From Bryoerythrophyllum caledonicum (lineage: Eukaryota; Streptophyta; Bryopsida; Pottiales; Pottiaceae): a stretch of DNA of 64,000 nucleotides. Of the stretch, positions 2,882-55,965 are shown piece by piece; the first letter of the stretch is position 1, and the number at the start of each line of letters is the position of its first letter. The translations under genes and the position numbers were made by a program. The notes below the pieces were generated by a model. It saw nothing but the letters and a program-made list of their open reading frames with translations. It was not told where the DNA came from and did not search any database. The DNA is taken from positions 15,612,593-15,676,592 of the forward strand of contig OZ020516.1 in the NCBI GenBank assembly GCA_963971425.1, written 5' to 3'.

Positions 2882-4121
2882 ACAAGAAAAAAAGACATAA
2901 AATCTCAAATGTGTATGTGGAGACAAAAAATGTTTCTTGGTTCCTTCTTAAGGTAGTTGTAAATATCTTTGACTTACAATATTTTTTCATTTATTTATAT
3001 TTCTATACAACATATTTATTCATTTATTTATATTTCTATACAAAATAAGATCAGTTGCTTGTATTGAAAATTGCTATGGTAATAGAAGAGTGTAGCAAAA
3101 CTTTTGGACCTACTTAGAGTTGAGTAAAATGCATTTAAAATAATATAATATGTTTTAGAAGTCTACAGGATTGGAATTTGTTATAGTTTCACAAACCTAT
3201 TAGCACGGTGTATCTTCAGAAATATTTTACTAATTTGTCATCAAAATTGAAATCATAGTAATCTACTAGAATTGTGGAAGATCACTTAAAGCAAATAACA
3301 GTTCAAAACTGTTGATTCTAGTATAAAGAGTAGAGAAAAAATTTTAATTTTATTTCTAATTTTAATAAGACTTTCTCAAATAACATGCTCACAAAATCCC
3401 ATAAACTTGCCTCGATTGAAAGATTATAGTGTTTGAAGTAGAGGAAAATTTCATTTTCTTCACTTGATATCAAATTTTTGCACTACACAATGTCTAAATT
3501 TTATTCTATCATGTTGACCATGATATTACTTTCTTGGACACCAATTTTCAGAGGTAGAAAATGGGTGTAGCATATTCAAAGAACTATGCAATGAGTGGAG
3601 CTTCAAAATTTACCAATACCCATTTTTTTCTTTTGTAAACTAAATATGTTTTAGAATTGGAATCCAAACGGTCAATAAGAATGTCTTTGCCACATCTCGT
3701 AGTAGGAAGATTAAAAAGTAAAAATAAATAAGATCTCTAATTTTTATGTGGAAAAGAAGAAGGTTTTTTGGTGCCTTGCCTCACAATGTGTGAAAATGTT
3801 TGACTTGAGTTAAGATGTTTTTTACACTGAAGACAATTTATTTTTTTGACAATATCAAAGAAAATAATATCATGTGAATAAAAAATCTTAGTGTCTATAG
3901 AAACTTGTAGGAAAAAATCTGGAGCTATCCACAATCTCCACTTTTTCATTAAAAGTAGTATAATTTTTTCAATGTAGAGGTTCAATTTGGAAAATAATTA
4001 TCCTAAAGAAGCTACTATGCTGCATCTATATAAGAAAATTCAGAAAATCATCATTGAATTTGAGAACGCAGAACGTGTCCAAAATGGAAAATGTCCTCCC
4101 TGGAGAAATGGTCCTTTAGGG
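2882..4121. repeat. AT-rich dispersed repeat ending in a TTAA-type terminus
   Basis: This AT-rich block contains the complement of words seen at 26.6-27.3, 29.7-30.4 and 31.0-31.7 kb, for example 'aatgtgtgaaaatgtttgac' near 3786 and 'gaaggttttttggtgcc' near 3759. It ends CCTTTAGGG followed by TTAA at 4122-4125. The inverse of that end resembles the left end of element A. Its opposite terminus was not found, so it is probably an old, eroded piggyBac-like copy in minus orientation. No coding potential is seen. Confidence 0.5.
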
Positions 4122-20799: not shown

Positions 20800-22533
20800 G
20801 ACATAGCAATGGATACTACAACATTCATGAGGGGCTTGGATGTTATTCGAACTAAAATTATGAAACGAATCAGGACATGGCTATGGAAGTGATATGTAAG
20901 ACAGTATTTTAGGCAACTAAAAATCAAAGAATCATCATGGCTTGCAAGTGTTTTAGTACTTACCTTTGCCTTGAATTAACAAGAGAAATTTGAGGTAGTC
21001 TCCAAGAGAATGGAGGTCTTTCTGCTCTGGACAAGGCTCCTATCTGAGACTAACTATTTGTGAACTCCTCACACTGGTGGAAAGATGCGACGAGCCATAA
21101 GTGAGTGCACCAACCAATAAGTTTCATATTGGGTGTACTCACTTGTGCACCCGTGTCATCTTTCCACTAGCATAAATGACTAAGTAGATTGAACATGTTT
21201 TGCAACTAGCAGAGTAACTATGTAGGACTGGTGCACCCATGTTTGTGGGTAGAGGATGGCCAAGAGTGTCCTATTTATACAAACTTGCCATGTCTTCTAA
21301 TTCCATGTCTCAAACCATAGTTTGGACATCTTTTTGACACTTCAGATTTGGACCTCAGATCTACACATGAACCTTATGTGATTGATTCATTGAATCAGGC
21401 AACTGACAATGTCCTTACTAGTCAAATTTAATAATTGTGAAAGATGTACAAGTTGTAGACAGGCACCGACCATCTTGCCAGCCACTACTAATAATTAGAG
21501 AAGTCAAAATCACTCATGTCAATCACATGGTAAAGTGGACCATGTAACTGCTGTTGACATGACATTGAAGCATAATAATTTCAAGATGTCAAATCAAATC
21601 GACATCAAAGATTTTTTAGTCTGTAAATTACCTTATGTACCTTTGTGTAGGCATCGACATTTTTTGCCAATGGTGTGAAGACTTGGTGCACCTTTGTGTA
21701 AGCACCGACATTCTTGCCGACCACAGTTAGTAATTATGGAATTTAAAATCACTAGTAGCATCATAAATGTACATAGGACCGTGCAAGTGGCCAACCATTT
21801 GGATGGCTAATTTGCTAGATAAACAATATTCTAGAAGGTAAACTCAAACCTACATGAAAAGAAATGTGATGGTATGTTTTGAAAATCCAAGATTCATTTA
21901 TGTAGGCACCAATTCTTTTGCAACCATTGTCAATAAACACGCAATTAAGCAATTATGCACTTAGCCAAGTGCACTGCTTGCTGGTAGAAAGCCGCAAGTT
22001 ATTTGCTCATAACTTTTTTTAAAATCAAAATTTGGCAAAAGTTTAGTATGTTTTTTGTCAAATTTTTTTGGTGTTTGTTGTGTCATACCTTGGCATCTTC
22101 ATGTTCATATCAGTAATATAATTTTTACATTTGCTACCTTTTTTTAGAAAATATATGATTTCTAATCTAGTTTACAAATCCTGCTACAAAATTATAATCA
22201 TGTGCCCAAAGAGATTATAAATTTGTTATGAGTTATTATAGGATTTTAGAGTAGTGCACTACAAATACAATGTGTAAGAGATACAAAAATATATATGCAA
22301 TTTCCTAAGACAGTGTAAAGTACCTCACTGTATTTTATAATGCAAAAACATACATAATCAAACAATTCCACACTATTGCCGAGGAATTCTAAAATCAAAC
22401 ATATCATATAGACCACCCAATATATAAATATATACCATCCACCGAACGATAGACACATCTCAAACTACATTATACTAACGTACTTGTCACCTAAACTGCG
22501 TGCATGCTCTACAATAGTATATAGCTCCACGAC
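20800..22533. other. No gene seen; hairpin at 21073-21171 and degenerate direct repeats
   Basis: An imperfect inverted repeat of about 45 bp per arm lies at 21073-21171 (CTGGTGGAAAGATG against CATCTTTCCACTAG). Between 21460 and 21960 a block around 'gcaccgac(c/a)ttcttgcc...aaaatcact' recurs roughly every 240 bp. No open frame looks like a protein. Confidence 0.5.
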
Positions 22534-25500
22534 TCACAGCTCATCTTCTGGCGGAACGACTCCCTCCACGTGTCCAATGGCGCTACCTACCATAGCGGAC
22601 AGTTCATGATCTTGCACTGGACGATCTCCCACACCTTCGATGCCAATGGACGCACACTCAACATATCGGTAATTGCCAGGAACACCCTCCCGCGTATGCC
22701 TTACCCTATCATCATTGTAGAAAAAGCCATCCTCTGGATTGAAGGACATCTCTCGCTCTAACGAGAAGGCCCCCTGAAATGCAATGATGTCCTCGGATAC
22801 GCTAGATCTTGGAACGGAAGGCAAACCTAGTCCGGTATCACTCTGAGTACCTCCGAACGTCTCTTGTGTCTCCGATATAGGCTCTGATTGAAAAGCCATC
22901 AAAGGCTGTCGAATCCTCCTCTGCACCGAAAAAAATTCCAAAGAATCCAATTCTTCTTCCTCCATCTCCAGCCTAGGACCATCAAATGTACGCCCCCCTC
23001 CTGTCCCTGCCGCCAAACCAACATCCACTACACCGGTATCTTGCATCCTCTCTGTAGGTGTTGCAGATGTCTACCCTGAAGTATTTCCCACCGCCCGCTG
23101 CGTTGATGGAATCCTATCTCTTAGAGGAGACAGGTTCACTCCATCTTCATCGGCATCTGAACCACTACGAGATGAGAAATCTTCAGTGGTACTTGAACGT
23201 GGCAATCTCTCATTTAAACCACCTCCATCCTCATTGTCATCTTCATTCCCCACTCCACCAACCGCCTCTTCGGTCTCAGGTACGATGTTGCAACCAGTAC
23301 TTGTTCCACCAGTCCTGACCAACAGTTGTCCTTGGAAATTGTCGGACAACTCGTTGTACAAAAATGAAACTCTGTCTGTACAATCGTCAACGATGAAAAC
23401 CTCAGATCCCTGGAAATCTCCTTCAAGGATCGTGGGAATGGCCGTAGATATGTTACACGCCACTAAACCCCAACCACGGGGCAAGTATGAGCCCACTAGT
23501 CTTGCCAGCTCTGATGGAGATCTCTCAAGTGAATCAACTTCAGAGGGTTGGCGTGCCTCACTCCAGTGATCCAAGAAAACAAGTGGAAGTGGAACGTCTC
23601 CAGAAATATAGTTCGGGCCAGGAGATGTACCCAGCGGGTGCTGCATACAAATCACAACATCGCCAATCGGTTGTACTACTTGCTCCAGACGTCCATTCTC
23701 TGTAAAATCGAGAGCATAGGGATTAACCGAGTTGGGATCAAATGCCCAGCATCCACGTCGCATAGTACATCCCTCTGGAAGCTACACCTTCGTGAAAAAG
23801 TCTTCGTTGGCATACACGGCCGCTGGTAACAAGAAGATGACGTTCCATCGTTCAATATTTGCCATCCATAATGCCAGCTGTGCAAAAACTGCGGATAACT
23901 AGGCGTCTCCCCAATGACCATCTCCATGCCTCCCACCGCCACGTCGACATTCAATCATCCATAAACATGGTTTCCCCAACTCTATGTAGTCGGTGCGGAA
24001 TAACCCTCTTCCACACCGAACCGAAAGAAGATTCTCTGTGTCGCTCTGGCCTCGCCTCTTCACTTCCATCTGCCATTCCCAATTAGCAGTAGCATGTCCT
24101 CCCACATCCACGGACAGTCCAATGTATCCACGCCCCCCTGCTGCAATGTCACCATAATGAAACCTGATGGAAGGAGGGATGAGGTAGCTTATGTCTTCCA
24201 GTTTAGACACCTTCCCCCGCACAGGAGCCGTCCAAGCTTTTTTCGTGGCAGCATTCAAAAGCTTCCCAAACGTATCAAGTTGTGCGTTACTCCTCGGAAA
24301 ATACTTCCCTACACGGATACGAAAGAAATCCTCCATGGAATCAAGTGTACTTTCCTTGTTCTCCACCATCAACCAACGGATGGAATTCATCACAGCTTCT
24401 CGTCTCTGATATCGGTCAACCACACCGGCAATAGTACGAGGATGTGGATTCTTGTCTTTTACACCGTCGAAGTAATATGCTTGACGTGGTCTTACTCCAT
24501 CCTCCCCCACCGGCTTCGCTGCAGCAGACTTAGCCAACCGAAGATAATATGGATTCGGAACCCTACCTAACCGCCTCAACCAATTCTGCGTCATCTCCTT
24601 TCTTGTTGGTCGTACGTCCACATTTGGATCCAGCTCTTTCTTCCTCGCCATGTCCTTCCACTTGTCCTCTTTCTCCTTGCTGTAAAAGAAAATGCCGTCT
24701 TCGTAGTCCTTGCATACTTGAATGATAGCTTCGAAGCAGTCATTGCTCGGATTTCATGCATGATTGGTCAGATCCTCCATGTTTTTGGCCAATCTCTTCA
24801 CCGTGACAACTCCATCCCCCTTGGGCAACTTATGTACTGCACTTGCCGCACTCACCAAAGCAACAGCCCTGCGTGCATCGTCCGCACGTAGTGTGCTATC
24901 AGGCCTCCCATATAGATCCCAAATCTGACGGATCTTCCTCAAATCCTCCTCCATGGTAGAATATGACTGTTTCTGGAACTCTGCCACGTTGATCCGCGCA
25001 GACTTCTCAATGTAAAAGCGACGATCATCATACATTACAAAAGAGGCCTCCCGCCGCTCGAACGTGTCCAGGTACTCATTTAAAGGCATAGTACCATCTC
25101 TCCACTGCTGCTGTGCAAACTTACAAGCTGCTACTATGTGTTGGCCATCCACTGGTTCCCAAATGATATGATCTTGAAGCCAAGAATACTGGGATCCCAT
25201 CGCACCATGTGCAGAAGCACTCCCGTGTGCAATGAACATGTGCTCAAACTCTCGTCCGGTTCCTACCAACGAAAATGGCAGCTCCTCCTTCTCAATGACA
25301 CCATCATCGGTGGTAGTACGTACGATGTATCTGATCGGTCGAAGTACCAATCTACTCACCCGACTCGCAGATTTTGGGTCTCTTAAGCAGTTAAATACTT
25401 CTCTGACCCTCTTCTGTGATAAAACCCGGTGGTTCGTTTCCGGGTTCTCCACACAGACAATGCGGTCTATGTGTGCCTTAAACACAAAATTCCCCCACAC

Positions 25501-26498
25501 TGATCCTTTCGCAATCTCCTCCGTTGTAGGCACTGGTGCTTTTAAATTCATAGGAGTTGGAACATCTTGTGGTATCTCCGCATTGTCTTCAAAATCCTCT
25601 GGTATACTATCTGGAAGGTTGTGAAAATCTTCTTCCTCCGGCGCCACGGCTGACAAATCAGCTACATCTCCCGGTGTAGATGTAGGGGCCCTACGATGAC
25701 CATCAGACGTCCTGGGCTCCGACCTAGGAATCCTGCCACCCGATCTTGCACTTCTCCCAATCAACCTCCTCCCGCTTGGATCCAAACTTGATGGGCTTTC
25801 TCTTGAACCAGAAGATACATCACTGTCAACACGCCGTGGCCTCTTCGTAGGACGTCTACTCGTTAATGGAGGATTCGGTAATGTCTGTACCTCAGAAGTT
25901 GTGCTGGGATGTTGGCCTCCACTTCCCCTCCCCCCTCCAGTGGTCGCCAATCCAGTTGCAACGGCTCAGCAAGAACTCGATAAACTTCTGTTTCTTCTGG
26001 TTCTGCTGGTGGGGCTTGAGTTGTCGCACGTGATGGGTCCTTCTCCCGAAATGCCTCATATCTAATATGTTCCTCCATAATCTTCTTAGCCTTCAACACC
26101 ATCTCCGGTGATAACGCTAAACATGATAAGACGTTGTTGTGTCTAGCAGTACGTACCGCAAGAGAGATGTTTAACCAAAACGTCTGCAATGATTTGAGGA
26201 ATTTCACCTGACCTGGATTTTGAAGAAGATTCAATGGTACAGGTGCCAAAAGCAACTTCTTCGAAAGAGAAGTCTTCACTTCCGATTGACCTGGACCCAC
26301 TGCGCAAGTAACGTATACCATATCATCACGTCGAAGAGTGATTGCTTGGATTTTGCCAAAACTCTTCCCCAACGCCGATGTACGCTTTCCCAGCTCAAAG
26401 GGATAATCCGTCACCCATAAGAAGGCGCTCGACTCATCCACTTCTGCAATCCACCAGCCGTGGCTCTCCCAGATTCTATCAATATTTGGTGGTGCCAT
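22534..26498 (-). pseudogene. ParB-like mobile protein gene, one long decayed frame (copy I)
   Basis: Four adjacent minus-strand open pieces join into one former frame of about 1,320 codons. From 25950 down to 22534 they share a single reading frame, broken only by TGA at 24754-24756 and TAG at 23899-23901, 23782-23784 and 23071-23073. The N-terminal piece, from MAPPNIDRIWESHGWW at 26498, joins through a frameshift in a G-rich run near 25925-25936. Domains, in order: an unrecognised N-terminal domain; a basic, Ser/Arg-rich linker (KRPRR near 25840); a ParB/sulfiredoxin-like region with ENPETNHRVLSQKRVREV and the box EPVDGQHIVAACKFA; a strand-rich region (HYGDIAAGGRGYIG); then GDVPLPLVFLDHW...LPRGWGLVAC, faintly like a Rossmann methyltransferase core; and an acidic tail. 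ParB-like is moderately sure. The methyltransferase reading is weak. No host-gene homology is evident. Confidence 0.6.
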
Positions 26499-26561
26499 AA
26501 CGCAACACTCAAAAAACCTGTATATCGTTACAAAACAATAGTCACTATTAGTATGGAATAA

Positions 26562-27320
26562 GAATTTTTGAACCACCACTCATTGCACAATATTTTTGAA
26601 CATGCAACACCCCTTGTCTACCTCTAAAAACTTTTGCACTACACAAGATCTAAATCCAATACCATCGTGTTAACCATGTTGTTAGTTCTTTGGTGAAATA
26701 GCATATTCATCCAAGTCAATTATTTTCACACATTGTCACACATTTTCGGGGAGAATACCAGAAAACTTCTACCTTTCCACATAAAACTACGAGAACTTCG
26801 TACGATTCACTTTTGATTATGCCTACAGCATTATGCGATGTAAAACTTCTTATTTACCATTTGGATTCTCATTTAAAACAATATCGAGTTCACTAAAAAA
26901 ACATAACGTTAATTGTGAATTTTTGAACCTCCACTCATTGCACATTTAAAAAAAATATGCTACACCCCTTGTCTACCCCTAAAAATTGTTGCACTACACG
27001 AGATCTAAATCCAATACCATCGTGTTAACCATGTTGTTAGTTCTTTGGTGAAAAAGCATAGTAATCCAAGTCAATTATTTTCACACATTGTCACACATTT
27101 TCGAGGAGAGTACGAAAAAACTTCTACCTTTCCACATAAAACTTTGAGATCTTTGTATGATTCACTTTTGATTTTTTCTACGGCATTATGTGATGTAAAC
27201 CTTCGTATTGACCATTTGGATTCTCATTTCAAACGATATCAAGTTCACAAAAAAACATAACGTGAATGGTGAATTTTTGAACCCCCACTCATTGCACAAT
27301 TTTTTTGAATATGCTACACC
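26562..27320. repeat. ~355-bp tandem repeat of the dispersed AT-rich family
   Basis: The words 'gaatttttgaacc' and 'cactcattgcaca' occur at about 26562, 26917 and 27270, giving a unit near 355 bp in slightly over two copies. The same family appears at 29.7-30.4 and 31.0-31.7 kb in plus orientation and at 3.1-4.0 kb in minus orientation. The unit is non-coding. Confidence 0.8.
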
Positions 27321-27685
27321 CCTTTTCTAACTCTAAAAATCGGTATCTAGCAAACTAACATCATGCTTAACATTATGGTAATTAATTGAGACCTTTTATA
27401 GTGCAAAAATGTGACACCAATTGAAATCAAAGACTGCTGATCCAGAAAACGCAGGGAAGAAAATGAGCATTTTCACTACTTCAAACATTATAATCTTTCA
27501 ATCCGTGCGGTGAAACTTTATGAAAATTTTTGAGCATATTACTTAATAAGTCATCATTCAGATCCTACGGTTAAAACTTAAAAAAAACATTAATTGTAGA
27601 GGCTTTCTAATTGCACAAAAACAAGCAATTTTAACGATATTTGGGTTAGATATTCTCTACATTATTTATGGACCAAGGTACTACG
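27321..27685. other. No gene seen; AT-rich continuation of the repeat
   Basis: It contains 'ctgctgatccagaaaacgcagggaagaaaatga', a block that recurs in elements at 30270 and 31500. It is therefore the distal part of the same repeat family. Confidence 0.5.
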
Positions 27686-27862
27686 GGTATCAATATCCAG
27701 GGTATCACGACCAGGGTATGAGCTCCTTGGTATCACAACCGGTTATCAACCGGTGTACCAAATTAGGGTTTGGGTTAGGGTTTGGATTTCCGGGTATCAA
27801 TAAGGATATCAATCCTTTGCTCAAGTGGGTAGTCCTAGGAGGGGTGTGCGAGCGCACACCCC
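27686..27862. repeat. GGTATC words, telomere-like repeats and a perfect palindrome
   Basis: Four '(g)ggtatca' words fall at 27687-27800. They are interrupted by 'ttagggtttgggttagggttt' near 27765, degenerate plant telomere-type repeats. At 27841-27862 GGGGTGTGCG-AG-CGCACACCCC forms a perfect 10-bp hairpin. Purine/GT-rich sequence follows up to the gap. It is more likely interstitial than a real telomere because the repeats are few and impure. Confidence 0.6.
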
Positions 27863-27889
27863 TGGTAGAAGTTGTGATGAGGCTGTGGG

Positions 27890-28162
27890 TGAGAGGGTAG
27901 GGTTAGGAGGAGAGAGACAATGTGTGGGAGGTGTGAGGAGATGTGTGGGAGATGTGTGGGAGAGATGGTGTGCGGGGAAGGTGTGAGGGAGGGGAGGGAA
28001 GTTGAAGGAGGTGTGAGGGAAGTTGTGGGAGGTGTGAGGGGGTTGTGGGCGGCTAGGGTTTAGGAGAAAGAAGGAGAGAGTGGGTGAGGGAAATTTTGTG
28101 TGGGAAGTGTGTGGGTGAGTTGGGAAGAGGATAGAAAAAAAAAATTTGGACTCCCGCTGCCG
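27890..28162. repeat. Purine/GT-rich degenerate repeat
   Basis: Repeated 'ggtgtgagg' and 'tgtgtgggag' words dominate. Together with the G-rich flank beyond the gap this probably explains the failed assembly. Confidence 0.6.
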
Positions 28163-28362
28163 NNNNNNNNNNNNNNNNNNNNNNNNNNNNNNNNNNNNNN
28201 NNNNNNNNNNNNNNNNNNNNNNNNNNNNNNNNNNNNNNNNNNNNNNNNNNNNNNNNNNNNNNNNNNNNNNNNNNNNNNNNNNNNNNNNNNNNNNNNNNNN
28301 NNNNNNNNNNNNNNNNNNNNNNNNNNNNNNNNNNNNNNNNNNNNNNNNNNNNNNNNNNNNNN
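28163..28362. other. Assembly gap of 200 N
   Basis: Exactly 200 unknown bases, a round number typical of a scaffold gap of unknown true size. No feature should be called across it. Confidence 0.99.
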
Positions 28363-28504
28363 CGGGGGAGGAAGCTCTTGTTTTGATTTTCGCCTCGATG
28401 TGTTTGGGTTTGCTTGGTGGAGGAGCACCAGCAGTAGGGGGTGTGCGCGCGCACAGCTCTAGCTCAAGGTTACTTGGGAGGCGTCACGCGACTTCCACGT
28501 CACG

Positions 28505-28660
28505 CGAATATGTTGACTAGGGTTTGGATTCGTGGTTGTGGCGGCTAGGGTTTGATGGCGGCAGCTAGGATTTGGCGGCGGTGGCTAGGGTTTGGTGACG
28601 GCTGCTAGGTTTTGTTGCTAGGGTTTGGGTTCTTGTGTGTAGAGGCTAGGGTTTCAAGTA
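28505..28660. repeat. Minisatellite built on CTAGGGTTT
   Basis: The word '(g)gctagggttt' or a one-base variant recurs about seven times at 22-32 bp spacing, with 'ggcggcggtg'-type spacers. AGGGTTT is the telobox complement. It may be a telobox-rich promoter remnant or a degenerate interstitial telomere-derived repeat. Confidence 0.7.
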
Positions 28661-29459
28661 GTGCGCTGATGTGCCATATTGAGGATTTTCTGCAATACTA
28701 CGAGCTCTCTTTATACTCACTTTATGAGATTTTGGTGTCATTTTTCCAGTATAACAATGCCTGCACTCTCTAGTTGTTGACTGCTATCATGTTTTCTTCT
28801 TGAAATTGCAATTTTGAATATACTCTAGTTGGTGTTTCTATTTGTGTATTCAAATATTGGTACTCAGCTAACACTAACGTAATTCTGTCTGAACTTCAAT
28901 CATCATGAAAAGTGTCCTGGAGTTCCTCGTATTCAGAATTGAAACAAAGTTAGAAGCTTACCAAGTTTGCAAAAATCTCCTCGATGTGCAAATTTCCTCC
29001 AATCTACACAGTTTACAAATTTGACAGAAATTAGTGAATGAAGTAAAAATGCACATAGCCTTGAGGTTTTGATTGCAAGAGTGCCCACCTTAGAAACTGC
29101 GAAGAGAAATGACCTCTAGGTTTGCATAGAAACCTTTTATCCATGTTGGAACCTTGTGCCTCAAGTTTACTAGTAAAAATTTGACTTTAAGAACTTTGGA
29201 CCTCCATATGTTAATTTTTTCAATATATTATATTAAAATATCAAGCTATAAAAATACGAAGATACATATAGGATTTTTTATCACATAGTTTACCATATAA
29301 ACTTTATGCATGTGTTGCAGGTAAAGTGGGAAGGGTTGAGAAACATGTCCAACAACAACGACGGAATGGTGATATAATGTTGAACGCCATCAAGCATCAG
29401 TGCGTGTACCGCTAACACCTGCAACGTATCTTGAGGTAAACATTTATTTTTATACAAGT
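28661..29459. other. No certain gene; possible short exon near 29321-29436
   Basis: At 29311-29321 'tgtgttgcag' is a good splice acceptor. At 29435 'gaggtaaac' is a possible donor. The enclosed sequence could be an upstream exon of the DUF7869 gene at 31942, but both reading frames tested end early, so support is weak. Confidence 0.25.
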
Positions 29460-29463
29460 TTAA

Positions 29464-30507
29464 CCCCTAAGGTACCAAGTGTCCAAAAAGGGCTTTTTGA
29501 AAGTTCGGTCAGGTTCCTATGGTGTCAATTTCCAACATTCTTATTTGAAATTTTTACTATAAAAAGGCATTACCAAGACCTTAGTGGGAAAACAATTTTT
29601 ACCCAAATTGGACATTTGATGAAAAAGTCATAGGGTTTTGAATTTTAAATGGGGAGGGCGGGCACCTCAGGCACCTCCAAAAACTTTTGATAGGACACTC
29701 TATTGAAAGTGAGATTTACAGTACTTACAAGTAATATTATTCCCCTTCATATTGTCAAAAAAGAGTTCTTGTCTTTAGTGATACCAACCCAAGTCAAACA
29801 TTTTCACACATTGTCACCCATTGTCGGGCAAGGTACCAAAAAAACTTCTTGTTTTCCAAATAAGACCTAGATATCTTCATATTTTTCACTTCTTATTTTC
29901 TCCACATCAATATGTAATGTAAACCTTCATAAAGAAGAATAACTCCGGCCCCTGAAGGGGGCGGCGTGAGTAAAGTGTCTGTTCGTTCCACTTACTAAGA
30001 CCATGTCCACTGGACAAGGAAAAGTTGTGAACCTTCATATTAACCATTCGGATTATCAATCAAAAACATATTAAGTTAAAAAAAAATTAAACTCTGAATT
30101 AACGAATTTTGAGCCTCCACTCCTTGCACACTTGTTTTGAATATGCTACACCTGGTCTCTACCTGTAAAAATTGGTGTTTAAGGAGCTAACATCATGTTT
30201 AACAAGATGGTAATAGATTTAGACCTTTTGTACTGAAAACTTTTGACACCAACTGAAGTCAAGGTCTGTTGATCCACTAAACGCAGGGAAGAAAATGAAC
30301 CATTTGCTTGACTTCAAACACTATAATCTTTTAATCCGTAGGGTCAAAGTTTATGAAATTTTGTACATGTATTACTAAATAAGCCTTTATTGAGATCCTA
30401 CGCTCAGAACTAAAAATCAAAGTTTTTTTTTCCTTCTTTATTCGTTGCACTAGAATCCATTTTGTTTGAAGTGTTTTTGGTGTAAAACTGTCACGATACC
30501 TTAGGCG
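29464..30507. mobile_element. piggyBac-like non-autonomous element D1
   Basis: The 1,044-bp segment is flanked by TTAA (29460-29463 and 30508-30511). It starts CCCCTAAGGTACC and ends GATACCTTAGGCG, inverted ends with two mismatches in 13 bp. There is no transposase frame. Interior words ('tcacacattgtcaccc', 'cgcagggaagaaaatgaacc') are shared with D2 and with the 355-bp tandem repeat. A 97-bp foreign motif is embedded at 29934-30030. Confidence 0.7.
29934..30030 (-). ncRNA. Conserved structured motif, copy 1 (possible RNA element or SINE)
   Basis: This block matches 55740-55860 in inverted orientation. Shared words are 'taaagtgtctgttcgttcca', 'aagaccatg(t/c)ccac(t/c)gg' and 'gacaagga'. The hairpin at 29945-29964 (loop TGAA) has a stem sequence different from the partner copy, yet both stems pair, with one G:G mismatch here. 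Pairing is symmetric, so the strand assigned is a guess from the orientation of the LINE that carries the other copy. There is no known RNA family I can assign. Confidence 0.45.
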
Positions 30508-30511
30508 TTAA

Positions 30512-30801
30512 GATTGATTCTTGATTGATCTTTTGTACAATGTTGTTTGTAGAATAACCTTTATGTGGATGTACAAACCCATTATTTAATTAGCAATTGT
30601 AACAAGTTCCAATGGTGTCAATAATAGCAAGTAGACAACATGGTTCATTTTCTTCCCTAGGTTCAGTGAATTCCCTTTGTTTCAGTTCACTTGGATTCAA
30701 CAGATTGCATCACACATGATCTAGGTTCATTATCATCATGTGAAGAATGATTAGTTCCATTATTCACCAATGTTTAGGAATGCAAAAGAGGTGTAGCATA
30801 T
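30512..30801. other. No gene seen between two TTAA elements
   Basis: AT-rich. Near 30781 'tgcaaaagaggtgtagcata' is the complement of a word of the dispersed repeat, so the spacer belongs to the same repeat family in opposite orientation. Confidence 0.4.
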
Positions 30802-30805
30802 TTAA

Positions 30806-31745
30806 CCCCTAATGGATCAAGTGTCAAAAATTGGCTTGTTGAATGTTCGGTCTGGTTTCTATGGTGTCAATTTCCAACATTCCTCTTTGAAAATCTTACT
30901 ATAGAAAGGCTTTACCAAAACCTTAGTGGGAATAACAATTTTTACCTAGATTGGACATTTGATCAAAAAGTTATAGGGTTTTAAATTTATAATGGGGAGA
31001 GCGGGCAAGTTGGGCACCTCCAAAAACTTTTGCTAGGACACTCTGTTGATTGTGAGATTTTTGGTACTCAAAAGTAATATTACTTCCCTTGTTGGTGTCA
31101 AAATAAGTTCTTGTCTTTAATGAAAAATAGCATGCCAACACAAATCAAACATTTTCAGACATTGTCAGTCAGTGATGGACAAGGTACCAAAAAAACTTCT
31201 TGTTTTCAAATAAAATTTAGATATCTTTTTATTTTTCACTTTATTGTTCCACAACAATATGTGGTGTAAACCTTCTTATTGACAATTTGGATTACCAATC
31301 TAAAATATATTAAGTTCACAAAAAATTACAATGTGAATTGACAAATTCCGAACTTCCACTCTTTGCACATTTGTTTTGAATATGCTACACCTTTTTTCTC
31401 CCTCTAAAAATTGGTATACAAGGAACTAACATCATGCTTAACAAGATGGTTAAGGATTTAGACCTTCTGTAAAAAAAAAATTGACACGAAGTGAAGTCAA
31501 ACTCTGCTGATCCACTACACGTGGGGAAATAAATGAACCATAAGCTTCACTTCAAACACTATAATCTTTCAATCCGTCCGGTCAAAGTTTATGAATGTTT
31601 TTTTAATTATTACTTAATAAGTCATAATTGAGAACCTACGGTCAAAACTAGAAATAAAAGTTTTTGTTTCATTATTTGTTCGTTGCACTGGAATCCAACA
31701 ATTTAGAAGTGTTTTTGGTGTAACACTATCATTGTATCTTCAGGG
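30806..31745. mobile_element. piggyBac-like non-autonomous element D2
   Basis: The 940-bp segment lies between TTAA sites (30802-30805 and 31746-31749). It begins CCCCTAATGGATCAAGTGTC and ends GTATCTTCAGGG, a weaker terminal match. Over most of its length it aligns collinearly with D1, for example 'tgttcggtctggtttctatggtgtcaattt' against the same block at 29500. It lacks the 97-bp motif present in D1. Confidence 0.6.
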
Positions 31746-31941
31746 TTAAAGACTCCGTGCAAGGAGTTCATGTTCTAAAAATTCTTAATTTTCTCATTTC
31801 AAAGCAGTTTTATCAAAAGATCCAATATCATCATCATATTTTGAACAGTAAATTTGTGTTTAAAAACATACATTTTATCAGATGAATGGTGTTTTGAAGG
31901 TTAACAATTAGTACATGTATTTTGACTAATTTGCAGCCATA

Positions 31942-34900
31942 ATGTTCCTATTTTTTTTAACAATGATAATGGAGAGCCGCACGATTCAGACTCCTTTGAT
32001 ACGGCCACACATCGAAAGGGACAATATGCCTTGTAATAGCTCTGTGGGGGCCCGATTAGTACGAGCAGCACGTGCAAGGCAAATTCAACAGAGATCTGTT
32101 GGGATCATGACTTCTGAATTGGAAAGGGCAGTAGAATTGCTTTCAAAAACAGGAGATGTGGTGGGCTTAGCAACGAGGGAGCATGCATTCAAAAGTGGCA
32201 TGGAATTGAATGGGTCGAAGTTGTTCCCATTCGAGGTGGCGGTGCGTATCACTAGGGTAGATGATGCATTGCATTGGACCGGAGAGATTGTAGGAGAACG
32301 CCTTGGCATGTGTGTGGGCTTGATCATTCGTTGGCATCGATCTTTGCTACGTGTAGTGGCTGTAGAACTTGATATCATAGGTGTCCATGGTGACATTGGA
32401 TCACAGATAGCGCCTGCAGTAGTGATGGCCTCAGAATTTGATTTTCCTGAGTTCATCAACACACTAGGATCCACCCAGAGGTCTCGACGCAGTAGTCATG
32501 CTTCAAACGCCATAGATGAAAATTCGCCGTTTTCCCAATCTACTCCCTCAAATATCCAAGATTTGCCCCATGTAGATGGATTTGCTTATGTTAGACCAGC
32601 ATGTCGTCCATATTCTATGCAAAATAGGAGAAGGAGAGATACAAGGGAGCCATCATTGACAGAAGCTGCACCATCTAAGGTATCGCTTAGAAGCGTGCAA
32701 ATTGCAATGGCACAAGGAGGATGCAAACATAATTGTTTGAGGGACATTCCAGCAAGGTATCTATTGGACATGCGATATAATGCATGGGGTAGTGAGTTTT
32801 CAGTTCGAAGTACGTGGATGAGACAGATGCTGGTTTATTTTTACACAAGGATGGAAGGAACTCGTCGAGACAAGTTTGTAACAAAGTTAGATGGGAAACA
32901 AGCTTGCAATGCTTGCTACGCTCTTGGGGTTGGATATTTAGAGAGGCGCTTTAAGCAATTGAAGAAGGACTGTCTAATATATGGAAGAGTGACATCGATT
33001 CACGGCAATACCCTTTCAGATCCGATAAGAGAGAGTACTAGAATGTCTGCAGCAGAGGCTTGCTTTAAATCATTTGTGGATGAAGCTGGTTGTCGTCAAC
33101 CTCATCGTTGTATTCGCCGTAAGAGTGACAACGAAGTGGTGCCTCTCATTCTCCTTCCTATGAATACAGCCAAATTTGATGTATTTAATTACGTGAACGA
33201 GGAGGTCAAGAGAATTTGTAATGGAGAAACCATTTCTATGAGTTCGTTCCGGAGGATGTGGCGCATCAAGTATCCCCATGTTCAGGTACCTCCGTTCTCG
33301 AGATTCTCAAAGTCTTATCATTGTTGGGAGTATAAATGTGCCATGGAGGAAACCACCAATGCGGATGCAAGGATAAAGATAAAGGAGTTGTTTATGTTGC
33401 ATCTGCGCAACCAGATGGAAGAACGTAGGCATTATTGGATATTCAAGAGGTCGTGTTATATTAGCCCTGAGTTGTATATGTGCATCATAGTGGATGGCAT
33501 GGACCAAAACACGACCATGGTACCGAGGATGCGTCAGACTGTGAAGAACATTGAACATCGGTTTGTGAAGACCCATCTGTGTGGTGCTCTTGTACATGGG
33601 ATTGGTTTATATTGCAACGTGTGGTTTGGGGCTCACCACAAACACGATAGCAATCAAGTCGTGAGTACATTGTTGTACGTGATTGGAGATGTGCTGGGGA
33701 AGAGGGGCTTTTTGCCACCAACACTGCGAATTCAGGCCGACAACTGCACGTGTGAGAACAAAAACATTTATATGTTTGCTCTATGTGCTACATTGGTGGG
33801 ATTGGGGTTTTTTCAGGAGGTGGAACTATCTTTTCTTATAGTGGACCATACCCACAAAGATATTGATCAACGCTTCAGTTGTATATCAAATACGTTGAAG
33901 AGGTCGGACGTCGACTCGTTGAAGGAAATGATTAGTCTTATAGAACGAGGAACATCTCCCACGGAAGCATTTGTTAGTGCCCGGTTGCTAGAGAATGTAT
34001 GGGATTGGAAATTGTTCATAACTCCTCACTTACTGACAGGTCAGGATTCATTGGTGGGTATAACATTTCCGCACCACATGCGATTCTATATGGACAATCG
34101 AGCAGGGGCTCGTGAGGTTCGAGTACAACACAAACATTATTGCAAGGATCCATGGGGACCGGAGGCAGGGACGAAAACTTTGAGGTCGTTGCCAAATAGA
34201 GATGAACGACCATCGTTTGCGGAAGTATTTGCAGCGGACGAACGGGAGTTGAAGGCGTTGGATGACTTCATTGCATATAAACAAAGGTGCATTCAAAGGT
34301 TGCAGCATGAGGACAAGAATCGTGAGGCAAAAGTAGAGGCTGAAAGATTGAAACTCTATTTAGCTGAATTTCCACACAAAGATCGTAGCAATGAGCATCG
34401 TACCTCACCGTTTTGGCCTTCAGAGTTCTCCAACACCGGACCTACAGGGAGCGCATCTTTGGATGTAATGGATGGTGCAAGTGAAGAAAATCGCGAGGTA
34501 GATGTCGTAGTGCAGACAGTGGTCATGCTTCCAAATGCCAAGGCTCGAGGATACTTTGGTCCTCGTAGAGGAAGACCCTCTAATCAAGCAGTGCGTAGGG
34601 CACAACAAACAGAGCGCAACTATGTTGAGGAATGCGCCGAAGAAGGAGCAATGTATGAAGGTAATCACGACCCATTTCCACCATTTAATCCACAATCTGA
34701 TATCCGTTGTGGACAGTTTGTAGCCTTGAGTGTTGATCGAGCAGAGATAGAAGGCGGTGTTCCATTCTATGTGGGGAAAGTGATTGAGGAAGGAAAAAAC
34801 CGACGGAGACTTAAGATTAAGGTTTGTTGGTATTGACCCATGATCCAAAGGGGGGTTGCTGATGGACATGGGTCTTCTGCACAACGGTATGCAAATTGCA

Positions 34901-35160: not shown

Positions 35161-37564
35161 ATAGTGTGCCTTTTTTAGGGTGTACTAGTTGTGTATGGTA
35201 ATTGATATATAGTGTGTGTGTAAGAGTAGTATATTCTAAGGGTGATCTAAGACGTTATGTCATTAATCCTTTAGAATAAAATTGTGTTTAATATTGGTGC
35301 TAAGTCCAATTGTTGAAGCATCTATATTTAGTTTTCACCATTGTATGCATTATGTAGTACGTAGAATATCTTTTAATCAATTGCCAACCCTTGCATAAAG
35401 TATGGTTTTTTGGATTACTCCTGTTTATATACTACAATCCTTCAAATCTATCATTTATCTAGTATTAACGAGGGGCCACCACAAATTAGTTGAAAATGCC
35501 AAAAAATCGCTTCCAATATGAACAACCATGATTGTACGTAATATTGTTGCAGAAGCTCAATTTTTTTTTCTTTGGAAAACATTTTTTTTGTTTGATTTTT
35601 TTTTTTTTTTCAATTTTGCCACTTTTGTTCGCAATGGCCGCCGTTGTACCCAAGTGCACTTTTAAATGGCCAAGTGCATAATTGCTTAATTGATTATTAT
35701 AATCATGTAAAGGAATTATAAAATTTATTTTATTTTATTTCATCCATTTTAATTTTATTTTTGGAACATTGCTATAATTTGTAAGATTTAAAATTGATAA
35801 AGGATTTTATTAAAATAGAATCTTGATAAATACCACAAATATATTCTTAAGCTAATACATGTTTGAAGGTCGCCGGTGAAATGGTTGACAGGTTGAAAAA
35901 GGACGTATATGCGAATCCGATACTATTATATGTTGAAAGGTCTCCGATGTAATGGTTGACACGTTGAAAAGGGACATTTATGTGCGAATCTGATACTATT
36001 ATACGTTCGCTAATGTAATGATTGAAAGGCTAGTGTTGAAAGGACAAAGGTGAAAGGACAAAGCTTGACAACCTTAAAACTAATTGTATCATTTACAAAG
36101 TTATATAGATTAGAAAAGAGGTCAAACCCGTGGTATCTTTCATCTTTGCCGTACTTGGAATGGCTTTTTTTTGGCTAAATTGTCATATGATGTGAGTTGT
36201 TTTGATTATTTATTAAGGTAGTGATGTTATTTTTCATGTGAGACATGTGGAAATCTCTGATAAATGCATTTGTGTGTGACTTCTATTATCAATCTTAAAA
36301 CCTCGAACTTGAACATATAGACCCCAATATTATCAAGTACGTACTTATCAATAATATTTGTCATGAGTACGTGCTGGATGATGAGTCCAAGAATGGAGTA
36401 TTCTACTTGCATTTATTGGGGTCTACAAGGATTCACTTCAATAGTTCATAAGAAAATTATAAGAAGCCATTTTATATATTAAAAAATGGATCACACAAAA
36501 TGCTAGGTGTAGATATTTTAGTTTTGTGGAGGTCATTGTTACATGTATGTTACTTTGCTTGAAGTTGCTTCACACTACGGTGGAGAAGATCCATCACTCA
36601 AGAATTCAAGAGAAATTTGAAACACTCTGAGCTTGATAATATTTCACCCTTTGTTTCACTAAAAAGGTAATATAAAAAAGGTGCGACATATTTCATGATA
36701 TCACATTTGGAAGGTTTATGCAGAATGTGATATTATGTAAAAAAAAAGTAGAAAACAAAAAGTAACAAAATAAATAACAAAATAACAAATTCTCACCCTG
36801 AGTTGCCTCCATCCCAAACTTAAACATCCTAAAAAGGCAAGATATTGGGGAGGCCATTATTGTCTATTATTGTTGAGGAGGGTGAATTCCTTTTTTTAAG
36901 AGGAGAAATCCCTTGCAAGCAAACTACAAAGTTTCTGCATCAACTCAAACGAGCAAATTTAAAATATGGACTACCCTACACAGTGGTCAATTTTGTACAT
37001 GATTTATTCAAAATGGAATGTCCAAAATTTATAGAAATTTCTGGATGATACTTGTGTAATACCTAGGTGATGTTCATTGATACCCATTTGCGTCCTAACC
37101 ACTACAACCCAAAAAAATAATAGATTTGGCATGTGGTGTACAAAAGTGACCACTTTCTATAGTACCTAGAGTCATTCTTTGAGTTATTTGTGCAAAGAAA
37201 ACCATACAAACACACAAGAATTTGTTATGCAAGACCTATCCTAATTGTTGTTATTTGAGATGTAGATTTCTTTCAATACAACCTATAAAATTGGAAACAA
37301 ATCAAGATGATATCATAATATTGAAAGACTAATATTCTAAAGCATAAAAAATAAGTAAGCACAATTATAAAAACTAACCATCAAAAAGAAGAAATAGAAC
37401 TCTGGTCTCCAAAGGATAACCAACAAAATAATTGACGTCACCAATGTAAAACATGACTTTTGGTCATGCCTTTTGTAAATATGACTTTTGTGGTGGTAAC
37501 TTTTGTAAACTTTGTGGTGACTTATTTCATGTGGCTCCGTGGTGCACCTAGTACTGTTACACAC
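35161..37564. other. No gene seen; short tandem repeat at 35859-36010
   Basis: A ~72-bp unit around 'gaaggtc(g/t)ccg(g/a)tg...gcgaatc(c/t)gatactattata' occurs twice, plus a fragment, at 35859-36010. The remaining open frames, including one at 36845-37048, have no recognisable protein features. Confidence 0.5.
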
Positions 37565-40128: not shown

Positions 40129-43100
40129 TCACTCCAGCATTTTGGTCCAGTCATGAGGCTCCCACATCTTGGCGAAATCCTTCGCGTACTTATCTTGGTC
40201 CCTCCTTGACAAAGCCTGCATGTGAAAGTCCTCTTCTTCGATTTCCAACATCCCTTCCAGTACCGCCCTGCCAAACTCCGGCTTGAATTTTGTCTCGTCA
40301 TCAATCACATGAGCGTAGCCACCATTCATGCCGAACTCCACATGGAAATAGGGGAAGTTTTTGGGCACAGAGGCACGTAAGCCTTTAATCCTGGTGTCAA
40401 TGAGCCTCTTTGCGTTATGTTGACTCCATTCGCTCTCTGCTTCATCAATAGCCTGCATCACGTTGGCACCATCAGGTTCAGTTTAAACGGGCAAGAGAAT
40501 ATTACCTTTTTGTAAAATGCTTTCCAAAGGCAAGACGATACAGGTTAAAAGCTGACCTTTTTGAAATACAGAGGAGCATCCTTTGAGAAGGAGCTTGGAA
40601 TGGGTATACATTCCACCACACAGTGGCGCTTTTGACGTGAAAGGTGCATGGCGGTCTCCAGAAATATGGCTTCCTTGTTCTGCTCATCGAACATGCGCAC
40701 CAGACACTTCTTGAAGTTACGAAGCTCCTCCCATGTGTCGTCGTCAACGTTGCGAGTAGCTCCCTCGTGTTGCATTGGGACTATGTAGCAATGGCCATTC
40801 ACAAGAGGCTTTCTTGGAGGTAACGTGAGATACGAGAAGTTCGCAATCGCCATCGTGAGGTGCTTGGGCCTGTTTTCGTTGCCGAAACATAATTGACACC
40901 GCTCCGTTTGCGTTTGAATGCGGTTGTAATTTTGTACAGTAGGGCGTTGGTTTGAACCCTGTGGAGGTTTCTTCTTCTTCTTCTCTGCACGAGGACCCAG
41001 ATCATCATACTCGTCATCTGCTTTATACAACTTGTTTTGACCTATCAGTCCTGCCATAGATTTGTCTGCGCTCTCCCTCCGAGACTCTAAAGTCTTCTTC
41101 CCTAAAGCCTCAAGCCTGGCGAGGATTTGCGATGGTCCAGGTGAGGACTGCTTTTCCTCTTCATCGGCAGGTCGCTCCCTCGCCATACTTGCAGCAGCTT
41201 CGCCTTGCTTCTGTCAAATCATAAAAGAAGCAGTTCAGCGGAAGAATACAGCATTTCAAAAGGGTAGATCCTCATATCAACCTAAAATGAGGATTTTCCT
41301 TTCAAACACCTCGAAAGGGTTCACTCGCTGAGATGCAACAAAACATCTGATACTGCATTCCAGAACGAGATTGAATTCATCTATATTTGCTAGCAGAATA
41401 CATTGCAAAAAGAATTGCTAACATACCTGGAGCTCGTCTGCTTCTTTATGTTTGCCTCGTAGCCGCAACTGCATCACTTTCGCTGCAATTTGATTACTAC
41501 TCAAGTTTTGTACCTGAACGCCACTAGTTTCAACCTTCCGCCCTGTATCAACCACCCTCGAAGATGGTGCTTCCACATCATTGTTCCTAGCCGTCTGATG
41601 CGAATCCACTATTGCAGCAGGCTCAGAAATTGCAACCCTTTTGACCTCATATGAAGATTTAATACTACTTGCGCTAGCATCCTTGGTTACGCTGTGAGGT
41701 TCCACTCTTGAGACTAGCTTCGATACAGTAGCCACATGAGCACCAGTGTCGGACTTGACATCATGAGAGTCGGATTCCTTCACCGTCCTAGTGGTTTCTA
41801 CCCTAGTAGTAGTAGTAGTGGTTCTCGTCACAGTAGAGACACGGGTTGAAGTGTTTGGCTCCTCTTGAGGCTTAGACGACCCAAAGTTCTTCAAAAAATC
41901 TCCATCGTCACTGAACTTGTTGTAAGTTTGAGCAGCAGCCCTTAATACAGCAGCGTCTTCAGGTCTGATGCTCCCTTTGTTTCTCCAAGACAATTTTTTA
42001 TCTATCTGAGGTGCTCTCATGCGATTATCCTTTGCTTTAACGTCTTTCAAATAATCCCTACTCGCTGTTCTCATTCTCCTATCATCTTCGTCCTCTGGTG
42101 CGTTGGCCTCCTCTCCTTTCCTGCCTTCCCCAGCTTGAGGTGCATCAGTGACTCTGTCGTCAGCTTTTCTCGTCCTGTCTCTTTTGGCATGCATGTGTGC
42201 ATTCGCATGCGCTGCCCTTTGGACTGCAACGCTGTCGGTCAGTGACGCCAAGGACCCCCACCGCTCCTCAACAACCTGAACATCATATCAATCCATGTCC
42301 AGAAAACGTCAAAAACAACCACCACGAACAGTAGACCTCACACCTCGTCATCACAAAAATCCACGCCAATTACATCTCACATCTCAAAAGCTAAAACACA
42401 AACCTCATCCAGTTTCTTTCCTTCTCGTGCAGCTTGCTCTTGTGCCCTTTTCAGTGCTTTCATCCGCCAACTTGCACCTCCATCACCAACACCCGGAGGC
42501 GGCGGCAAACGACCACGACCTCCTCCAGTCAAACCACCTTTATCTGCTTCCGAAGGCAGTCCTATACCATCGTTTTTCCAGTATGGATTGAGTTCCTTAA
42601 CATTGCTAACTGGTTTCTGAAGAAAACACAGATGTCTCAGAAACTACGCCGCAGAAAAACTCATGCCGATGCCACATACCTCAGAACTTCAAACTAGCAG
42701 AGTATAAATCGACAGCATACCTCGGGTTCAAGACGTAGAGCATCATCTTGTACAGGAGCAGGCGGCCGTTCCGGTGCAAGGTTCATCCATTCCAAACCTG
42801 CTTCTTTTCTCTTATTCTCCTGCAATCCACGGTTTACCTTCCGGCTGGCGAGACCGTCTGCATTACGATATCAACGGAGTCGCATGAACTCAGTTATTTC
42901 CCTCTAGAAATCTCCACAGAAACCTAGAAATACAAACTCAAAACCTAAACCTCGATTTAACTTGAAATTACCTGAATCGTCTGACGCCTCGTCGCTACTA
43001 TACTCCTTGTCCTCCTCCTCCTCATCACTATATTTCCGCTTCGACTTCCTCTCGTGCTTCCGCTTCTCGTCTCCACGCTTCGACTTCCCCTTCCGATCCT

Positions 43101-45114: not shown

Positions 45115-45934
45115 ATGACTCCATCGATGACATTGAAGCTTTTCAAGATTGATCCTATCAAGTGGGAGGGGACTAAAAAAAGGACAGTTGGAGGAAGATC
45201 TCACCCGGATAGGTTGCATGGGGTTATACGAGAAACCTTGGATCTTCTAGAAGGGATATGCAACTGCAGAGTTGCTACCTCCCGGGACACCCTGGGGAGC
45301 CTATCCGGCTAATCCTCCGACATGGACTAGAGAAGTATGGCGTAATGGGTATTTTTTTATAGAAGAAGAGGGATAGACACTTGAGGTCAACTAGAAATTG
45401 CTGGAGAAGCACCTAACAAGCTCCAACGACGTATCGGAGTGCTACTGGAGTGATCAATTGACAAACAACCGGTTGAGGAGGGTAATTGAGTTTTTAAACC
45501 CAATTTTCCATCCCAACCAACATGAAAGAATCACAGTGCGGATGTCCACAACCTACATACAAGCATTCTTCCAGGATTCCTTCCCGGACTGGGGATTTTT
45601 GTTGGAAGAAGCGTTTTTGCTACAGCTCCGAGCAATTCAACTAGGTGGGTGTTCCAAGACTTTCTTATCTCCATACCTTATGCATTTGTATGAGTATTGT
45701 CGTTGTCTGGAACCGGAAGAAAAGAGGATTTGGAGGCAAGGGATGGTTCCCCAGGATCATTCTCCCCGGGCCTTTTCCCAACTTACTGAAGGAAGGTTGG
45801 CGCTACCAGTAAACCAACAGGAGGCATCATCATCCCATTCACTCTGGAATGATGGTAGGTCATCCCGGTCTCACCGGGAAAATCCACCTTCACCACCTCG
45901 GCTATCTAAGAATCTTACACTACGTAGAAAATAG
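45115..45934 (+). pseudogene. Gag-like mobile-element ORF, decayed copy 1
   Basis: This is a relative of the intact ORF at 62043-62678. The start MTPSMTLKLFKIDPIKWEG matches MALPATFKLLKVDPNKREG. A frameshift near 45180 then moves to the frame reading IGCMGLYEKPW, GAYPANPPTWTREVWRNGY, LRRVIEFLNPIFHPN and FLSPYLMHLYEYCRCLEPEE. In-frame TAG codons interrupt at 45248-45250, 45374-45376 and 45392-45394. The one at 45374 falls where the intact copy has Trp. The function is unknown. It is helical, has no zinc knuckle and resembles a gag or coat-type ORF only by context. Confidence 0.6.
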
Positions 45935-53599: not shown

Positions 53600-55965
53600 G
53601 TATGTGTTATTGTTTGTGATTATGGGAGTGTGGCTAATTAGTGTGTTGTTTGGGATGTGGAGTTGTATATAGGTGAGTGATCTGAGTTGAGGCCAATGTC
53701 CTTATTTGTTGTTGAGGTGTATTGTGTATTATTATTTGTTTTTATATAAAATTTGTCAATTAAACTCCAATCACTATAGTTATAGCCGCCTTGTCGGGAG
53801 TATTGTGTATTGGTGTTTATGTATGTGAGGTTCAAGTTATCAGTGAAGAGGCGCCAGAGATAGTCTGAGGTATGAGGGGGGTGTTATGGTTTCCATTCTG
53901 TCTCCCAATTAATGCTATGTCTCTATTAAAGTCACCGCATAGCATAGTTGTAGTTAGGGTTGTCGTTAATTTGTAATGTAATGGTGTTTTGTATGTGTAC
54001 TATAAATCTAGTGTCTTTAGGGTGGGTTGGCATATACATGTGAAGGATTAGCCATGGTTGTAGTGGTTGATTAGTGATTTTGATTATTTGAAGGTATGGT
54101 GATATGTGCATAGGTGTGGGGATTTTTTTTATGTTGCCTGGGAAGGCAAATTTTTTGTGAACCAATGTGAAGAGGCCTCCCCAGCTTGGTGTGTATGGTC
54201 TATGTAGTTGTATGCATCTAGTTAGTGTATGTGTGTTGTTAAAAATGAGTTTGTAATCTTTGAAGATGTTTTGCATATATTTTGTGGATTTTGTGGCAGA
54301 AATTTTTGTTTCTTGTATGGCGATAAGGGCTGGAGGAGTGTTTGAGTGTGATCAGGTTTTGTAAGCTGGGAAGTGTAGTATTTAGGGAAGCAGCGTTCCA
54401 TATAATAATGTGGGTATTGTTGCTATCTGTATTTCTGTTTTGTATTTGTGGAGGAGGTTAAGGAGTGGGGGAGGGGGGTGTGTGTATTCCGGAATTGGGT
54501 TTAAACATTTTAAGGAATTGTTTATTAGTGTGTCGAGGAGGTAAGGGAATTTTTGTTTTACTATGTCATGAGTGGGGGATAGGCTTTGTGTGTGTATAAA
54601 GTCATATATAGTGTTGTGTATTGATGGTTCAATTTTTATTATGTTCTGATTTTCTTCTAGGAATGTGGTATAGGGGTGTGGGGTGTTAATATGTCTTTTA
54701 GGGGGATTCTGTAATTGGCAAGGGTACTTGATAATGTGTCGGTCCATTGAGTAATATTCGGATTTTGTGGATCTAGAAGGCGGTTACAGTCATTTATGTT
54801 AGGGTGTATAGTGTTTATTAGGGCATATAGAATAGGTGATGGGGGGTGCGAGTAATGTTGATGGATGTATCGGGCAATGTGTGGATATATGATTTTTTGT
54901 AATTGGTGTTGAGTATGTGTATTATTTAGGAGAGGTCAGAATGTTTGGGCAATGTCTTTATATTCTGGGTGTAGTTTAATGGAGTTTGGTATGAATTATG
55001 TTTTGGCATTTTTCTTGTGTGTTGTCGGATGTCTTTTTAGTACGTTTGGCATGGGTCCGGGGTTAGTTTCTATGTCTCCGCTTAGTAGTAATAATTTCTT
55101 TTTATAGTGTGTGTTAGTATTTTAGTGTGTTGTTTTTGGTTTATTGGTCCATGTGGGTATTTTTGGTGTTTGATTTTATTTTTGTTTCTTTCTTTATGTT
55201 TTTGCGCATCTATATTTTTTCTTGTGTCTATGTGTTTAATTAGGAAAGTTTTATTTATTATTTTGTCGTGGGTGGTGTTTTTCGATGTTGGTGTTGTTAT
55301 TGTTTTTGTTTGTATTTTTCTGTGTTTATATTTTAGATTTTTGTATGTTATGTGTGTATGAACTTTATTTGTGTTGTGTTTGTGTGTGGTTTTGTACATG
55401 TATTTTTGTGTAAATGTGTGTATGTTTGTGAGTATATTGATGGTGTACTTGTATGTGTCGTTATGTGTGTTTGTATTTGTGTGTTTTGTGTGTGTATTTG
55501 TATGTGTGTGAGTGTTTACGTGTGTGTTTTTGTAGGTATATGTGGTTTTGGAGTATGTTTTTATGTTAGTGTGTGTGATGGGATGTTTTTGATGTGTAGA
55601 TGTATGTGTGGTTTGATGTTCATATGGTTTTACGTGAGTTTTATTTTTTTTATTTTTTGGGTGTGTTTGTGTGTTTGTATGTTTCTTGTGGTTGTACGGT
55701 TGTTGGTTGGTTTCTGGCTACTCGTTACATAGTGTCTACCCTCGAAAGGGGGAAGTAGTTCCAGTTCGCTAATTCCTTGTCCGGTGGGCATGGTCTTTGC
55801 AATGGAACGAACAGACACTTTATTCACGCCGGTTCCCTGCGGGAACCGACGTTCTTTCTTCTTCTTCTGTGGTTGTACGTATGTATTCTTGGAGGTGGTT
55901 TTTGTATTGAGTATAGTATGAAGTATTGTTTTTGTTTTTGTTTTTGGAATAGTGTATGTATTCAA
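53600..55965 (-). pseudogene. LINE retrotransposon fragment with AP-type endonuclease
   Basis: A minus-strand, AC-rich LINE relic. The endonuclease (exonuclease-endonuclease-phosphatase fold) spans about 54350-53640. It shows PALIAIQETKIS (catalytic Glu of QET), GGLFTLVHKKFAF, CGDFNRDIA (Asp-Asn pair) and, after a frameshift near 53850, GGYNYSDWSLIDKFYI and NSDHSPIY (catalytic SDH). Upstream, 54747-54382 and 55399-55082 are open pieces rich in Thr, Asn, Ile and Lys that may be an ORF1 or linker. No reverse transcriptase follows; the fragment stops beside the ParB-like element. It is thus truncated on its 3' side, which is the reverse of the usual LINE pattern. Confidence 0.75.
55740..55860 (-). 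ncRNA. Conserved structured motif, copy 2 (5' part of the LINE)
   Basis: It is the inverted partner of 29934-30030. A perfect 8-bp hairpin with loop TGC spans 55830-55848 (GGTTCCC paired with GGGAACC plus one closing pair). The minus strand also holds AGTGTCT and AGACACT, which could pair across the motif. Its position near the 5' end of a LINE suggests a leader RNA structure or a SINE/LINE shared module. It is unassigned to any known family. Confidence 0.45.

Follow-up and report, generated by a model that had tools for sequence, protein, structure and literature searches.

We analyzed a 64,000-nucleotide window of the Bryoerythrophyllum caledonicum genome (contig OZ020516.1; C3:15612593-15676592) and sought copies of its features throughout the 437-Mb assembly of 894 contigs. 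Within the window, a broken gene on the minus strand (22534-26498) and a gene of the DUF7869 family on the plus strand (31930-34836) lie back to back between two inverted repeats. The broken gene, which combines predicted ParB-type and methyltransferase folds, is the second (accessory) gene of a two-gene, ~13.8-kb DNA transposon with terminal inverted repeats and not a stand-alone gene.

The accessory gene is a pseudogene with four internal stops and one frame break. A first-pass annotation had read its separate-looking open reading frames (ORFs) as one former frame of ~1,320 codons, and both the frame and its length proved accurate. Over 22534-26600, the three minus-strand frames contain 20, 45 and 74 stops; 15 of those in the 20-stop frame fall at or above 25968, beyond the open part, and one is terminal. 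The four internal stops within 22534-25965 are those previously listed (TGA 24754-24756 and TAG 23899-23901, 23782-23784 and 23071-23073). As also proposed, the N-terminal piece (25863-26579, with an ATG at 26498) occupies a different frame and connects with the remainder inside a G-rich run near 25930. We joined the pieces as one gene because, beyond their shared phase, relatives bridge the breaks. A 503-residue relative (P0001) is continuous from the N-terminal piece to the ParB-like region, one of 584 residues (P0005) spans the first three stops and eleven predicted relatives of 816-1,488 residues, eight of them >1,200, cover 79-100% of read-through residues 155-900. Twenty same-genome copies, picked for long-looking frames, are all open throughout, each with a single frame of 1,341-1,371 codons from stop to stop and, in 19 of the 20, of 1,314 or 1,321 codons from a MAPP start.

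Intact copies and element termini, which the first-pass annotation had suggested seeking, were available in 20 open-frame copies, ten of them with both ends located. The 3′ end is common to all 20 copies and the window, apart from single-base variants in a few of them, and beyond it the flanks differ. In three copies read further upstream, the unit reaches window position ~35698 and includes the second gene on the opposite strand. The window copy spans 21936 to ~35698 (~13.8 kb, including a 200-N gap at 28163-28362), where homology to three further copies ends. Inverted repeats of some 30 bases form its two ends, one on the right, ParB-gene side (21936-21970, minus strand; reverse complement starting AACACGCAATTAAGCAATTATGCACTT) and one on the left, DUF7869 side (35662-35698, minus strand), the latter with degraded outermost bases in the window copy. 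The left stretch was fetched for 16 of the 20 copies, and the left terminal repeat was located in ten of these; in the remaining six it has either been lost or possibly falls beyond the short stretch fetched. Every one of the ten copies with both ends located is flanked by identical 4-bp sequences (AGTT, TACA, CCTA, ATAG, ACAT, TATT, TTAA, TAAC, CTAA and GTTT), with no identity among the 90 crossed pairs and no own-pair match at 3, 5 or 6 bases. For the window copy, a clear target duplication was looked for and none was found. With up to two mismatches, a 27-mer of the terminal repeat matched 941 and 970 genome sites, and the same pattern read backwards matched none. Terminal inverted repeats with 4-bp duplications, a Sola-type feature, are present, and the element appears Sola-like by duplication length; the available part of PMC10045372 gives duplication lengths for other transposon superfamilies.

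The DUF7869 gene has 968 codons in the window, where it is C-terminally truncated, and matches PF25273 at residues 544-725 (E = 3.9e-47). Its product is likely the transposase, since this is the only other gene recognised in the element; in the literature searched, no paper contained the word DUF7869. A genome search returned 3,846 first-look candidates, 47 of which were scored: 25 lack internal stops and have open frames of 1,071-1,077 codons, another 20 contain one or two internal stops and two are shorter, namely the window copy (968) and one more (969). A scored match to the ParB piece lies within 15 kb of 32 of these 47, the window included, and the two are divergent in all 32 cases. The other 15 have no neighbour among the 103 scored ParB matches, which does not imply absence. 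Three copies were read from one end through to the other: their DUF7869 gene is whole in L031 and broken in L029 and L030. With both transposon genes broken, the window copy is dead.

The family is abundant and has moved recently. Using the ParB-region piece as query yielded 1,141 first-look candidates, the best 103 of which were scored, all with at least 90% identity, and the family relative P0018 as query yielded 1,597 in the same genome. From the unscored candidates and the 1,911 terminal-repeat sites, we infer about a thousand element copies, an estimate and not a copy-by-copy count. Among 100 repeat sites listed (contigs C1 and C2), 27 adjacent pairs are in facing orientation no more than 40 kb apart, with spacings of 12.3-13.6 kb in ten, 2.2-7.1 kb in eleven and other values in six. 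Pairs spaced 2.2-7.1 kb may represent non-autonomous or deleted versions. The 20 copy ORFs show a median difference of 4.5% and a largest difference of 5.0%. Copies L015 and L016 have identical ORFs, with L017 differing by 0.05%, yet the flanks and target duplications of L015 and L016 differ, which indicates very recent movement of the element. P0018 finds a best match of only 47% in this genome and is itself absent from it; the family is therefore present in more than one genome.

A ParB-like region had been noted in the first pass, and structure prediction of a family relative recovered a ParB/sulfiredoxin fold; this domain and the subsequent helical region, transferred by alignment, lie approximately at 24415-25488 (minus strand). 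The assignment rests on fold, as Pfam, PHROGs and NCBIfam contained no ParB profile match, and sequence searches of the PDB with the pieces or their relatives returned nothing credible. The profile-database search recommended at that stage also gave no methyltransferase match, so that both folds come from structure prediction. Bacterial ParB binds and bridges DNA, and ParB partition proteins, which are CTP clamps, carry a G-E-R-R box. At this position, the 34 aligned rows listed read D-G-Q-H-I/V, and the same-genome copies D-G-Q-H (19 of 20) or D-G-Q-Y (one of 20). Beside the ParB gene, only the DUF7869 gene was recognised, no search having been aimed at ParA or parS.

Downstream of the ParB fold, structure prediction revealed a beta-class amino-methyltransferase fold that no sequence profile detects (approximately 23296-24071, minus strand, transferred by alignment). 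In this class, motif IV reads (D/N/S)PP(Y/F/W). In the model, the predicted strand at the place of motif IV ends in D-C-R-R (P0018 residues 573-576). Structural alignments begin at METTL3 residue 368 and CcrM residue 3, both at model residue 547, which, together with what we take to be the motif positions of these enzymes, puts motif IV at about model residues 574-576. In the window copy, the position placed from the model (23941-23952, minus strand) reads E-C-R-R. D-C-R-R occurs in all 14 rows of one alignment (A6), in all 15 rows listed at this place of a 40-row alignment (A4; mostly gapped rows dropped) and in each of the 20 genome copies. Motif I of amino-methyltransferases typically has an F-x-G-x-G-type glycine pattern; the strand modelled at this place appears to lack it in the 12 rows listed, reading W-G-L-V in 11 and W-A-L-I in P0031. 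The pooled ratio of nonsynonymous to synonymous substitution rates (dN/dS) over 190 pairs of copies was 0.25 for the N-terminal part, 0.18 for the ParB and helical regions, 0.17 for the methyltransferase fold and 0.56 for the C-terminal tail. With low dN/dS yet altered motifs, the domain is under purifying selection and is retained, though probably in a role other than that of an ordinary methylase. The methyltransferase-like core suggested by the first-pass annotation is thus retained as a predicted fold, while the replacement of motif IV in the model makes it probably a pseudo-enzyme.

The region between the divergent genes, together with the upstream part of the ParB gene start (26540-31749), contains several families of direct repeats. 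Their common short motif, GAATATGCTACACC, was found with at most one mismatch at five places inside the intergenic repeats and one outside. It was rejected as a binding site because the whole repeats are alike and similar repeats occur outside the element. Copies of the intergenic repeats with ~70-75% identity are present on the other strand at 3378-3888, outside the element. The 200-N assembly gap at 28163-28362 recurs at the matching place in L009, L010 and L015, the three copies covered from end to end, near a GC-rich mid-element stretch that seems hard to assemble. Elsewhere in the window, three ORFs (45395-45934 and 57386-57946, plus strand; 62043-62693, minus strand) form by eye one family of ~200 residues with a common LNPxFHPxx motif. 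The first two have no Pfam match, and the group is likely another repeat family. Strong strand asymmetry marks 54001-56000 (GC skew 0.58, AT skew -0.42), and a CwfJ_C_1 domain (PF04677) at 40548-41213 (minus strand) looks like part of an ordinary host splicing-factor gene.

Taken as a whole, the data are probably best explained by a two-gene transposon with an accessory protein that joins ParB to an inactive methyltransferase fold. The DUF7869 protein, as a putative DDE-type transposase, would cut at the inverted repeats and insert with a 4-bp stagger. Through its ParB-type domains, the accessory protein might bind the element's own DNA, most likely at the terminal or intergenic repeats, and it could serve as a self-recognition factor that counters silencing or helps to assemble the transposition complex. 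Its methyltransferase fold would then hold DNA or a partner instead of transferring methyl groups, for which the inactive partner in METTL3-type pairs offers an analogue. More tentatively, and with less than even confidence, we propose a specific history in which a captured ParB-methylase turned pseudo-enzyme, its new and strictly conserved D-C-R-R centre recognising DNA of the element itself, or a modified base on it, and shielding the element from silencing or assembling its ends, which helped to drive its spread to about a thousand copies in one genome.

Somewhat doubtful is the idea that the protein is a DNA-binding subunit of the transposition machinery that brings the ends together, and not an anti-silencing or marking factor. 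Its pairing with the DUF7869 gene in 32 resolved pairs and the DNA binding and bridging of bacterial ParB speak for such a role; however, no binding site was identified, and a second protein could equally be regulatory.

We consider it unlikely that the methyltransferase domain is active as an N6-adenine or N4-cytosine enzyme with an unusual D-C-R-R motif, through which the accessory protein would mark the DNA of its own element. Two points nevertheless favor activity and would weigh against an inactive fold: the strong structural match to active enzymes, and the strict conservation of D-C-R-R in the rows examined with low dN/dS, as an active site would show. A similar Ectocarpus protein has also been interpreted as active in the available text of PMC12477816. 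On the other side, P-P-Y of motif IV is replaced by C-R-R and motif I is without its usual pattern, although the place of motif IV is assigned by structure only.

The first-pass annotation had further raised an undescribed class of mobile or virus-derived element. Mobility is confirmed in the form of a DNA transposon, but similar algal transposons have already been published, and an integrated element derived from a virus or phage is very improbable. Fusions of ParB and methylase do exist in prokaryotes and phages (PMC5512222, as far as its available text goes), and there are structural matches to phage proteins, including one named ParB/Sulfiredoxin; at a root-mean-square deviation of 25.7, however, the latter matches domain by domain at best. 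Transposon ends and target duplications argue against this origin, as does the recognition of only two genes, neither a known virus gene. Scans of viral contigs, within their sensitivity, gave no confirmed relative: two of them matched short patterns at 12 and 10 places, none of which was confirmed. The same holds for matches at 53 places in GTDB genome contigs, and phage records gave one match (E = 0.8) and no confirmed relative. Finally, that the pieces are separate small genes, as their separate frames in the window copy might suggest, is refuted: all 20 copies retrieved carry one frame, and so do the long relatives among the predicted proteins.

Close parallels are known from algae. Sola1-1_Ec32 of Ectocarpus, according to the accessible part of PMC12477816, is a 21.5-kb element with a 1,104-residue accessory protein interpreted as a methylase. 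Published work treats such ParB-methyltransferase proteins in algal transposons as potentially a new class, one whose members bind and mark their own DNA. Both elements are DNA transposons of >10 kb with an accessory gene opposite the transposase that encodes a ParB-like and an N4/N6-methyltransferase domain; here, the accessory gene lies opposite the DUF7869 gene, taken as the transposase, with ParB preceding the methyltransferase fold. Likened by description and not by sequence, the present element differs from that account in its 13.8-kb length, its accessory protein of 1,314-1,321 residues, its replaced motif IV and its inferred thousand or so copies. Sola2 elements, in the available portion of PMC3627910, resemble it in AT-rich 4-bp duplications and short inverted repeats. 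They are described there with Fanzor and not ParB, and with a transposase of 888 residues, compared by description only with the 1,071-1,077 codons found here. Fungal transposons with TET/JBP dioxygenases have likewise acquired a DNA-modification protein, likely as a means of avoiding silencing, but involve a different enzyme class and different transposase families (PMC12730594, available in part). Bacterial fusions of the Bce_0392 type (PMC5512222) join a ParB domain to an amino-methyltransferase, as here, yet we found no sequence similarity to prokaryote or phage records. The METTL3/METTL14 and MTA1/MTA9 pairs contain no ParB and serve the cell as RNA or DNA methylases.

In the literature searched, which left most subscription journals outside, no paper on this transposon family itself was found. 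The family is a high-copy form of the algal ParB-methyltransferase kind of transposon and not a new class, and its distinguishing mark is the replaced catalytic motif. Abundant, recently active and under purifying selection, yet seemingly without the canonical catalytic motif, it provides a natural test of the self-marking idea. If the domain is inactive, self-marking would not be the general function of such proteins, and self-binding would be the better model.
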